In this document: one piece after another, positions 8,301 to 11,231 of the stretch | How the letters are laid out: every line of letters begins with the position of its first letter | Numbering within the stretch: position 1 is the stretch's first letter | DNA from: Methylothermaceae bacterium | GTDB taxonomy: Bacteria > Pseudomonadota > Gammaproteobacteria > Methylococcales > Methylothermaceae | Direction of reading: 5' to 3' | Assembly: GCA_027024125.1 (NCBI GenBank) | Contig: JALVSV010000335.1 | Span: 1 to 12,124, forward strand | Length of the DNA stretch: 12,124 bases | Translations under genes and position numbers: made by a program | The notes under the pieces: generated by a model | Seen by the model: only the letters and a program-made list of their open reading frames with translations | Told to the model about the DNA's origin: nothing | Databases searched by the model: none

Positions 8301-8325
8301 ACCAGCTGAAACAAAACAGGCTGGT
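8301..8325. repeat. Small inverted repeat in the gshB leader
   Basis: ACCAGC (8301-8306) and GCTGGT (8320-8325) form a 6-bp stem around a 13-nt A-rich loop, 41 bases upstream of the chosen gshB start. It could be an operator half-site pair or a modest mRNA hairpin. There is no T-run, so it is not a terminator. It could also be chance. Confidence 0.3.
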
Positions 8326-8372
8326 GTCTTATCCAGGACCACGTCATTTAAACATGCAAAGGATTGATTGAA

Positions 8373-8633
8373 GAGGAAGGTGGTCTGCTTCGAAAGCCTC
8401 GCCGGCAAGGAAGCCGGCGTGCAGCCTTCAGGGGCGAGCCGGACCGACAAATTTGAACAGCCGCAGGCTGGCCCCAACGGGGTGAACCACAGGGAAGTGG
8501 TTCATAAAGTCCAGTGGGCTTTCGAAGCCAGGCGAGCGCCCAAACCCGGAAGTTGGGGCAGGACTTTCTTGCACAGCAGGATTGCGCAGCAAGAAAGTAT
8601 TCACGGAGTTTTTCGAAGCAGACCACCTGCCTC
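8373..8633. repeat. 261-bp hairpin-array element with terminal inverted repeats and GGA loops
   Basis: The ends are inverted repeats of 23 bp with one mismatch (8373-8395 and 8611-8633); the inner 18 bp, AGGTGGTCTGCTTCGAAA, match perfectly. Between them lie about eight hairpins in a row: 8400-8419 (loop AAGGAA), 8424-8435 (weak), 8458-8470, 8472-8482, 8483-8504 (8-bp stem, loop AGGGAA), 8506-8522, 8538-8559 (loop with CCCGGAAG), and 8563-8598 (10-bp stem with CAGGAT inside). A 12-bp inner inverted pair (8387-8398 with 8517-8528) offers competing folds, and TTCGAA occurs three times (8389, 8521, 8612). Four loops show GGA on the plus strand, as in CsrA/RsmA-binding RNAs. No flanking target duplication or transposase is seen. 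It may be a MITE-like dispersed element, a structured RNA, or both; the function is not established. Confidence 0.75.
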
Positions 8634-8677
8634 GACCAGAATAGATGACAGAGCCCTGGGTGTCTTACCATCCTTTT

Positions 8678-8706
8678 TTGCCCGGAAGCCATATTTAGGA
8701 TAGAAT
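8678..8706 (+). promoter_or_regulatory. Probable sigma70 promoter of rpmB-rpmG
   Basis: TTGCCC (8678-8683) and TAGAAT (8701-8706) are separated by exactly 17 bp, a good match to the sigma70 -35 and -10 boxes. The expected transcript start near 8713 would leave a leader of about 33 nt before rpmB. The -35 box abuts a T6 run (8674-8679). This promoter lies outside the hairpin element, so rpmB expression need not depend on it. Confidence 0.72.
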
Positions 8707-9191: not shown

Positions 9192-11231
9192 CTATTCGGC
9201 GAATAGGTCTTCACTCGCCCCTTCATCCGAAAATAGCTCTTCTCCAGCACCTCCAGACGAATAACCTTCCAGTAACGGATCCCGCTGATCCTCTGCCTCT
9301 TCCCCTTCCTCCTTTACCTTATCCATCACCTCATCCGTCTTTCCATAGGTGGGTTTGAGGTTCACGGAAGGGGAAACCGAGTCGCCATCTGCCTGCACCC
9401 ATTCAAATATCCAGCTTTTGCCATATTCGGTCTGCAACCCAATGCCCAACAATGAGAAACTCGCCAGAATACCGACCAGAAACCACAATATGCCTTGCAC
9501 CATTGCCGAGCCCTGGTTCCAGGATGAGGTGTCATTCGATCCCAACGAATCGTTTTGCAAAGGTAACTGCTGCGATTCCACCGCTTGAAAATGTGATGGC
9601 AGGGAGCTGACATGACGCTCCTCGGCCCGTTGCGACAGTTCCATCTGTAGACGTTCACATTCCCGTTGGACCTCTTCCAACTTAAAACGCATAGCCGTTA
9701 CATCGGTTTCAGCCTGCTCTCTCACCATTGCCAACTCGGCTCTAAGAGACTGTACCTCCCCGCCACCCTCATCATCGTTGAATTGTGCGGCCTCCACATA
9801 CTGCCTGATGACCGCTTCTAGCTCCTGGACCCGGTCCTTGAGAGCAATCGATTGTTCCTCTAACTGTTTTTTTTCCTGATTGGCGCGCTCGTAATGCTCC
9901 TGCATGCGTTTATGCACTTCTTTCTGCTTGATATCCATTTCTTCAATTTCGCCCTGAAGCAACTGGACCTGCGTAGCCAGCTCTTTGTTTTCCGCTTCAA
10001 GCAGGATCAGCTTCTCACTTTCATCTGAGGAAATTTTGAGGGGTGACAGGTCATTGTACTCATGAGATGGACGCTGACGTTTCGTTTCCGCAAACTGTTC
10101 CCTCGCATCCTGCTGTCCTTCTGGTGCCTGCAGGTTCGTAGCGAATTCACCTTTCCCTTCTTCAAGATTGACGTTTTCCGGAACCTCTCCCTGCAGGCAT
10201 TTCAATGGAACCCCAACAAGACCACCTTCCAACACAGACGCCTCGAAACCATAACGCAACAGCAGGAAGGTTGCAGCAGAAGACAGATTCCCACTGTCAC
10301 AAACAGCAATGTATCGGCGCTTGCGATCCAGAGTACCCAACTGCATGCGCAGTGAAAAAAAAGGAATATTCAGACTATCCTCAAAATGCCGCTCCTGAAA
10401 AGCATCAGGATCACGAACGTCCAGCCAGATAGAGCCCTGTTCAACCTCGCACAATGCCAACTCCAGACTTACCTTTGTCAGTACTGGATTGACTACCAGA
10501 TCAATGAAATCCTCTTTGCTTAGGCGATGCACCGAACCATCGCTCTCCATGGTCACAGAAACCGCTCTGGGCAACCCGGAAATCAGTGCATCCTCTCCAA
10601 ACAAATCCCCAACCTGGATCTCTCCCAACTTGATATCTTTAGCATTGGGGCGAGGCTTTCGCGTGACCATACATCTGCCAGCAGACATGACATAGACACA
10701 ATCTGCTTCTTCACCTTGCTCTATGATCCTGGAACCAGCGGTGACTTCTACCTCTTCGAAACGTTGCAGAATTCTTTGTAAATTACTTGCAGGCAGGCTT
10801 TGAAATATTGACAATTTGAACAGTCTTCCCATCCAATCATCAGTCTTTTCTGTTTTGTCATTTTGGAATTTCGTTTCAGTATTTTCCTGATCTTGTTCCA
10901 TGGTTTCCATCATCTGCTGATCAATTCGAAAGTAACGTAGCTTGGTCAGGGCGCGTCCAGATACCTTTCGTGGAACCTGGTGTGCCAAAGGAAACCTTGC
11001 GGCTTCAGTCCCACCCTGGATTTGCTCCATCGTGATGCCATCGTTTTCCAGCACTACCCTCCCCTTGAGTAGATAGATCCATGCCGAATCGCAATCCCCG
11101 CGCTTAAAAAGGTAGTTCCCTGCGTCAATCTCTTCTATGACCAAATCCGAACACAATCGTTTAAATTCCCTTTGTGGTAACAAATGGAGAGGGATCATTC
11201 GTCGTATCTGGGAAACAGGGAAAGACTTCAC
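9192..11231 (-). CDS. Tandem cNMP-binding-like, rhodanese, coiled-coil, single-pass membrane protein
   Basis: Large protein of 679 residues with an unusual domain string. Residues about 10-105 look like a degenerate cyclic-nucleotide-binding domain without a clear phosphate cassette. About 135-250 is a second such domain with GDLFGEDALISGLPRAVSV (208-226), which keeps Glu213 and Arg222 of the phosphate-binding cassette, so it may bind a cyclic nucleotide. About 255-345 is a rhodanese domain: WLDVRDPDAFQERHFEDSLNIP, then the loop CDSGNLSS with Cys311 in the catalytic position. About 402-540 is a charged coiled coil. About 577-599 is one hydrophobic membrane segment, followed by an 80-residue acidic tail. 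There is no helix-turn-helix, so it is not a Crp-type regulator. It starts at GTG two codons after an in-frame stop, without a convincing ribosome binding site; ATG at residue 12 is an alternative. Function is unknown; nucleotide- and sulfur-linked signalling at the membrane is a guess. Confidence 0.85.
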   Translation of the reverse strand: MKSFPVSQIRRMIPLHLLPQREFKRLCSDLVIEEIDAGNYLFKRGDCDSAWIYLLKGRVVLENDGITMEQIQGGTEAARFPLAHQVPRKVSGRALTKLRYFRIDQQMMETMEQDQENTETKFQNDKTEKTDDWMGRLFKLSIFQSLPASNLQRILQRFEEVEVTAGSRIIEQGEEADCVYVMSAGRCMVTRKPRPNAKDIKLGEIQVGDLFGEDALISGLPRAVSVTMESDGSVHRLSKEDFIDLVVNPVLTKVSLELALCEVEQGSIWLDVRDPDAFQERHFEDSLNIPFFSLRMQLGTLDRKRRYIAVCDSGNLSSAATFLLLRYGFEASVLEGGLVGVPLKCLQGEVPENVNLEEGKGEFATNLQAPEGQQDAREQFAETKRQRPSHEYNDLSPLKISSDESEKLILLEAENKELATQVQLLQGEIEEMDIKQKEVHKRMQEHYERANQEKKQLEEQSIALKDRVQELEAVIRQYVEAAQFNDDEGGGEVQSLRAELAMVREQAETDVTAMRFKLEEVQRECERLQMELSQRAEERHVSSLPSHFQAVESQQLPLQNDSLGSNDTSSWNQGSAMVQGILWFLVGILASFSLLGIGLQTEYGKSWIFEWVQADGDSVSPSVNLKPTYGKTDEVMDKVKEEGEEAEDQRDPLLEGYSSGGAGEELFSDEGASEDLFAE

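Follow-up and report, generated by a model that had tools for sequence, protein, structure and literature searches.

The window, that is, the whole stretch of DNA analysed, comprises 12,124 nucleotides of a contig from a Methylothermaceae bacterium, and the interval 8373-8633 in it lies between gshB and rpmB, which are read divergently. As described in an earlier reading made from the letters alone (the sequence-only reading), the gap is non-coding: neither of the two open reading frames crossing the element has a Pfam match at E <= 0.01, and the element thus holds no transposase gene of its own. The inverted arms described there were also found, 28 nt long and 89% complementary, and had been taken for the ends of the element. 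The copy alignment ruled this out: similarity among the copies extends beyond 8373-8633 as far as position 8334, up to CAGGACCACGTCAT, and position 8658, up to ATGACGGAGCCCTG, and the target duplication flanks 8334-8658 and not the inner arms. The true left end is displaced outward by 39 bp and the true right end by 25 bp, which makes the inner arms subterminal (Table 1). The MITE is located upstream of a promoter-like site of rpmB, whose region is retained in congeners as judged by eye, and no promoter-like site was found within 8334-8658; the MITE is therefore not part of the rpmB leader. Elsewhere in the window, 9192-11231 of the minus strand encodes a protein of 679 aa that contains a rhodanese domain and two stretches of the cyclic-nucleotide-binding kind.

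Table 1. Coordinates of the element, its parts and its neighbouring features in the window
Feature	Position	Strand	Basis or remark
Whole MITE (non-autonomous transposon), 325 bp	8334-8658	+	Copy alignment and target duplications
Left target duplication GGTGTCTTATC	8323-8333	n/a	10/11 match to 8659-8669
Right target duplication GGTGTCTTACC	8659-8669	n/a	Partner of 8323-8333
Left outer terminal inverted repeat CAGGACCACGTCATTT	8334-8349	+	End-pattern count in genome
Right outer terminal inverted repeat, CAGGGCTCTGTCATCT on the - strand	8643-8658	-	11/16 identical to left
Left inner inverted-repeat arm, closing the hairpin string	8373-8400	+	Terminal repeat of the sequence-only reading
Right inner inverted-repeat arm	8606-8633	-	Pairs with 8373-8400
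Hairpin HA, loop AAGGAA, GGA 8409-8411	8400-8419	+	Fold and copy alignment
Core module, rrB/TLR-like; loop and most of H1 absent (15-nt deletion against the model)	8447-8505	+	61.3 bits, model R1
Module hairpin H2, CAGCC-GCA-GGCTG	8458-8470	+	Fold and covariation alignment
Module hairpin H3, CCCC-AAC-GGGG	8472-8482	+	Outside the lowest-energy fold of the window copy
Module hairpin H4, loop AGGGAA closed by C-G, GGA 8493-8495	8483-8504	+	Fold and alignment
Hairpin HC, loop CCGGAA (AGGGAA in most copies), GGA 8548-8550	8538-8559	+	Copy alignment
Hairpin HD, ACTTTCTTGC/GCAAGAAAGT with inner GCAGGATTGC, GGA 8579-8581	8563-8598	+	Fold and copy alignment
Promoter-like site TTGCCC-17-TAGAAT before rpmB	8678-8706	+	1 found against 0.4 expected

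In the BLASTN search with 8373-8633 that had been proposed with the sequence-only reading, the own genome yielded 66 matches, with 40 of its 120 candidates scored, and 16 of the 61 genomes searched had matches, the own genome included. Six of the nine congeners were among these (G002, G003, G005, G006, G008 and G009), some of them matching part of the query only. The outer end pattern was counted 141 times in the genome with up to two mismatches, compared with 25 for a reversed-pattern control. The element has terminal inverted repeats, and those of the window copy agree at 11 of 16 positions. Both ends were available for 50 copies, of which 46 came from the own genome, three from G002 and one from G006, with one row (L093, 254 bp) borrowing the right end of another copy; flanking 10-bp duplications matching at 8/10 or better were found in 37 of them (10/10 in 18, 9/10 in 17 and 8/10 in 2), where 0.8 were expected from swapped flanks. 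The mean flank identity was 0.77 at length 10 and 0.24-0.30 at lengths 8, 9, 11 and 12, which gives a target duplication of fixed length. For the window copy a duplication of 11 bp fits (10/11), and the 10-bp register matches at only 3/10; most 340-bp copies likewise have poor duplications, as expected of old insertions. The sizes of the copies step at about 73, 164, 267 and 325-343 bp. The downstream gene was on the same strand as the MITE in 30 of the 44 copies for which one was called, which is a hint only, the calling of open reading frames being crude and having missed rpmB in the window.

The comparison of the gshB-rpmB spacer in relatives pointed in the same direction. By eye, no element was present there in eight of the nine congeners, G002 carrying a degenerate relative, and in G008, the closest congener, ACTACCATCCTTTTTTGCC runs uninterrupted across the insertion site. 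What lies at 8334-8658 is one copy of a DNA transposon of the non-autonomous kind, inserted in the gshB-rpmB spacer with a target duplication of about 10 bp. The MITE-like nature proposed earlier thus held, on the strength of the copy number, the target duplications and the congeners with an empty site, its named ends being the part in error. Inverted pairs of the MITE (L020) were considered as a composite transposon enclosing a transposase and rejected, since each copy has its own duplication (8/10 and 9/10). The inside of another copy (L037, 1303-1569) is flipped with respect to its outer ends, an arrangement that recombination between the two inner arms would produce. The own genome also contains a second element (L023 1200-1700 and L030 1640-1900), with GAGCAGGGGAGTGGT inverted ends, the same hairpins and AAGGAA loops; HC of this second array is CCCGGAC[AAGGAA]GTCCGGG as against CCCAAAC[AGGGAA]GTTTGGG, both sides of the stem being different and the GGA loop being kept.

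Elements of the ISAs1 type are defined by ends that start with CAGGG and by target duplications of 8-10 bp, and the MITE, which begins with CAGGGC at its right end and CAGGAC at its left end, has ends and duplications of this kind. An ISAs1 element in congener G003 carries CAGGGCAATCGCATGAA at both ends and is flanked by 10-bp duplications, which were perfect in three of the four copies with both ends found, out of five loci examined. Because this element has like ends and 10-bp duplications, ISAs1-type mobilisation of the MITE is likely on sequence grounds, and we infer that an ISAs1-like transposase moved it. The ISAs1 transposase (PF13808) had 16 matches in G003 and one in G007, so that two of the ten genomes of the genus were positive, and no match in the own genome (G000), whose assembly is 91% complete.

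The 261 nt of 8373-8633 were found to fold beyond chance, with z scores of -7.3 for the plus-strand RNA, -9.1 for the minus-strand RNA and -7.9 for DNA, and in each case none of 200 shuffles folded as well. The string of hairpins reported earlier can be drawn between the arms, although two of its members, H3 and HC, are missing from the lowest-energy fold of the window copy, in which 8471-8478 pairs with 8552-8559 in their place; HC of this copy also has one stem mismatch. The closing stem, HA, H2, H4 and HD are formed, HA and H4 being closed GGA hairpins of the consensus kind. The window copy has four GGA loops, and the consensus copy forms five.

The core of the cargo of the MITE is a covarying hairpin module of about 75 nt, whose first and last hairpins carry GGA in their loops. 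A block at the junction of GGACCG and AAAGTCC was present in the large MITE copies and absent from the medium ones, and its presence or absence at one exact place fits a module entering (or leaving) as a unit; parts of the block were matched in other families of the order. The module is separate from the MITE and older than it. A scan of named genomes for TTTGAACAGCCGN{1,2}AGGCTGGCCC gave at least 80 loci, and the matches listed included the genera Methylomonas, Thioalkalivibrio, Rhodanobacter, Halomonas, Marinobacter, Ectothiorhodospira, Rheinheimera and Halothiobacillus. After removal of near-duplicates the module rows went from 78 to 47; two without a visible module were dropped, and the window and its sibling L017 were added for the alignment. 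GGA was found in the H1 loop in 43 of 45 rows and in the H4 loop in all 45, the base preceding it being variable, and H4 reads mostly C[ANGGAT]G or C[AGGAY]G. In the 47-row alignment 92.6% of the cells were paired in comparison to 22-45% for slid structures. The number of doubly changed cells was 174 in comparison to 52 in shuffled alignments, and covariation was 0.363 in comparison to 0.121, both to be read with H2 and parts of H1 and H3 preset by the search pattern that collected the rows. Two of the five measures were no better than shuffles: pairs changed on both sides numbered 12 against 10.7 (114 of 500 shuffles reach 12), and further pair types 33 against 34.1 (428 of 500 reach 33). For the cargo module, the selection on folding suggested in the sequence-only reading is thus supported: its stems covary between genera and its GGA loops are kept.

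The sequence-only reading had not recognised the element as one of a named family, but a named relative exists. The covariance model R1 was built from 32 rows, with L017 as one row and no row from E. coli, and it matched the rrnB terminator spacer of E. coli K-12 at 70.7 bits (E 9.4e-17) and E. coli tyrT at four places (11.8-18.5 bits); the window module reached its 61.3 bits with its sibling in the model, whereas rrnB was not in it. The rrnB inter-terminator spacer encodes RrB (the rrB gene), a tRNA-linked repeat (TLR), of which K-12 has 22 at ten loci; these repeats have been noted in E. coli since 1978 and are described in the RrB study as having been without a known function (PMC8144298). 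Judged by the model match, the cargo module is homologous to the core of RrB. The other hallmark of tRNA-linked repeats, a copy of 18-19 bp of the upstream tRNA or rRNA 3' end, is missing from the window copy: the search of the window found no adjoining tRNA or rRNA gene and no tRNA 3'-end copy. A named Rfam family for the element was also sought and ruled out, with no match at the gathering score.

The module was found in 116 of 274 genomes of the class and in 96 of 222 genera (model search, E <= 1e-4), with E-values that are rough and copy numbers that are lower bounds, up to 16 places being scored per genome. It sits between G and A in tRNA T-loop copies, group II introns, transposase genes, integron-integrase genes and the MITE. 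The base before it was G in 42, C in 6 and A in 3 of the 51 places tallied, with TTCG or TTCA preceding in 20, and TAA occurred within the 14-base stretch at its right end in 36 of the 51. A tRNA gene was present in 19 of 40 fetched loci, or 15 of 36 when the four picked for a nearby csrA are left out, and 16 modules in 16 loci (L151 included) begin 58-135 bp downstream of a tRNA, all on the strand of that tRNA, mostly splitting a copied tRNA 3' end between GGTTCG and AATCC. Two E. coli repeats formed a filled/empty pair, each filled at one site and empty at the other's (GAGTG[..]AATCCCC with TTAGCGAACGC; GAGGGAAGCCCC with GAGTG[..]AACCCG). By NCBIfam, modules interrupt genes of an integron integrase and of IS1182 (below cut-off), IS256 and ISCR/IS91-like (below cut-off) transposases; they also flank a group II intron maturase, and both orientations were seen relative to the interrupted or flanked genes. 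Matches were present in 448 of 5426 E. coli genomes, and a single one covered more than 80% of the query. The K-12 panC-rpnC spacer was rejected as the empty site of an O157 module, being only 73 bp long and without the entire surrounding repeat, and the top rows of the E. coli panC empty-site query were the filled site in two pieces, which isolated no empty alleles.

Several arrangements were observed besides. Integron integrase genes of Alkalimonas and Rheinheimera are split by the module near the RHSF motif (L132, L133, L173). Five head-to-tail module units lie about 72 bp apart in L225 (G012 C1:3570674-3571036), and in L151 (400-950) a tRNA-Ser copy is split by modules in the D-loop as well as the T-loop, beside an intact tRNA-Ser and another module. 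Many tRNA genes, for example in L241 (162-550), are followed first by a terminator-like hairpin, next by a partial copy of the tRNA 3' end in inverted orientation and then by a direct copy, whose T-loop contains the module; in L241 this occurs in tandem. On an E. coli plasmid from poultry, an intergenic repeat that lies upstream of ybtA also contains a module (L217 1998-2080), and of 192 matched plasmid records 166 were from Salmonella.

In IS200/IS605-like systems the hairpins at the ends of the element are recognised by the mobilising enzyme, and the GGA loops could similarly be read in single-stranded DNA, by whatever enzyme mobilises the module, and not as RNA by CsrA. The lack of a target duplication, the junction between G and A with its predominant preceding G, the position of two GGA hairpins at the two ends of the module and the two orientations among insertions in protein genes are in line with this explanation, which we nevertheless consider rather unlikely, as the GGA hairpins HA, HC and HD lie away from the module ends and RrB binds CsrA as RNA (PMC8144298).

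Among the baits of the RrB study, CsrA was pulled most strongly by RrB, which was also shifted in gels with CsrA at about 100 nM, the shift being abolished by changing three GGA; for the other 19 tRNA-linked repeats of E. coli a CsrB/C predictor gave scores below 0.01, and RrB deletion and overexpression had modest effects (PMC8144298). The SELEX site of CsrA is RUACARGGAUGU, with GGA in the loop of 51 of 55 ligands, mostly in hexaloops closed by AC/GU, and the repeats of CsrB read CAGGA(U/A/C)G, as given in PMC7652899. The GGA hexaloop of H4 fits this consensus, and the host genome has csrA. By analogy with RrB, the GGA-loop hairpins could bind CsrA if they are transcribed, and binding of CsrA by the MITE RNA in vitro, still putative, appears likely. 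Transposition of the MITE would then scatter potential CsrA-binding sites through the genome.

To see how the CsrA proposal compares with the genome data, we considered co-occurrence and loop composition. CsrA was matched in 235 of the 274 class genomes, and its co-occurrence with the module was no greater than expected, the module being present in 103 of 235 CsrA-positive and 13 of 39 CsrA-negative genomes, of which 20 are named as negative in the output and the rest are negative by absence from the match list. In one genus both genomes were without a CsrA match (G183, 95% complete with 11 modules, and G297, 55% complete), and some of the negative calls may come from genes missing in draft genomes. 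The adjacency of modules to csrA in four genomes was rejected as a link to CsrA, as the tRNA genes beside csrA there are the better explanation. A role of CsrA in vivo goes beyond these data, because CsrA did not predict the module and the MITE lies outside the rpmB leader. Among hairpins with a stem of at least 6, those inside modules had 117 GGA, 0 TCC and 3 other loops.

The strongest competing explanation is that of a plain MITE whose inside is structured and functionless, the hairpins being leftovers of nested insertions and the GGA loops being inherited, neither selected nor bound, and to this we give nearly even odds. It would account for the poor duplications of the full-length copies, which look old, for the loss of the H1 loop in the window copy and for the failure of CsrA to predict the module. 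The five GGA loops had 3 mismatches out of 375 in 34 MITE copies in comparison to 392 out of 7793 overall, a conservation with P of 0.011 against random triplets and just 0.067 against unpaired triplets, the latter again agreeing with a functionless inside. What it explains poorly is the constancy of GGA across genera while the preceding base varies freely, and also the extra non-module GGA hairpins (stem of at least 6) on the same strand near the module: within 400 bp outside modules there were 47 GGA, 19 TCC and 141 other loops (207 in total, deduplicated, some of the GGA hairpins possibly being degenerate modules), and further away 77, 64 and 937 (1078 in total, not deduplicated).

That the element is a small RNA gene of the CsrB/RsmZ kind turned repetitive is very improbable. 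Many GGA loops on one strand would suit such a gene, as would sub-threshold Rfam matches over modules to rsmX (one locus) and RsmY (two loci), but these are weak, microRNA families having better E-values in the same table, and the window itself has chance-like matches only, at E <= 5. The target duplications and outer inverted repeats show transposition, and no promoter-like site was found inside the element.

Through this analysis the observation of the sequence-only reading was confirmed with corrected ends and its interpretation was supported in part: the sequence is repeated, its module covaries, and relatives differ in having it. We consider, with a probability of roughly three in four, that 8334-8658 is an ISAs1-type MITE whose cargo is an RrB-homologous module with candidate CsrA-binding GGA loops. 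As a MITE, probably of the ISAs1 type, the frame is commonplace, in contrast to the cargo, which ties a repeat of E. coli tRNA and rRNA operons, reported to bind CsrA, to a module inserted widely in Gammaproteobacteria and multiplied here by a transposon. More tentatively, and as something less likely than not, the core of the tRNA-linked repeats may be a mobile RNA-structured module of Gammaproteobacteria. It would insert between G and A with no target duplication, in many cases into copies of tRNA T-loops, would be carried along by MITEs, group II introns and transposase and integron-integrase genes, and would have CsrA sites in its loops, dispersed as a mobile sponge or as a source of new CsrA targets. 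No published account of the MITE or of a mobile core of tRNA-linked repeats was found in searches of one open-access library.

As an insertion spread widely and well outside tRNA operons, this core offers a testable answer to what tRNA-linked repeats are, namely mobile elements, and together with the binding of CsrA by RrB it offers a testable idea of their function. Should MITEs prove to carry sites for CsrA, a global regulator acting after transcription, their transposition could rewire it, and if the module is indeed mobile, its spread would disperse CsrA-binding sites through genomes.

In comparison to known systems, the element resembles MITEs derived from ISAs1 in its CAGG(G/A)C ends and 10-bp duplications, as in the G003 ISAs1 copies, and differs from them in that the ends diverge beyond the first six bases (CAGGGCTCCGTCAT vs CAGGGCAATCGCAT) and that the host has no transposase match. 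With the tRNA-linked repeats of E. coli (rrA, rrB and rrF in the rrnA, rrnB and rrnD terminator spacers) it shares the homologous core of four hairpins with GGA loops, whereas the window copy lies inside a transposon with its own ends and has no tRNA or rRNA beside it. The sponge RNAs CsrB, CsrC and RsmX/Y/Z similarly have several GGA-loop hairpins on one strand, and the loop and closing pair of the element fit the CsrA SELEX site (PMC7652899); in contrast to these RNAs it falls outside the CsrB and RsmX/Y families at the Rfam gathering threshold, is mobile and multi-copy, and has no known transcript. Another similar group is that of the REP, BIME and REPIN palindromes, which are also repetitive intergenic hairpins in many copies, REPs being palindromes of 20-40 bp tagged GTAG or CGTC (PMC3733652), while the ends of the present element are terminal inverted repeats with target duplications.
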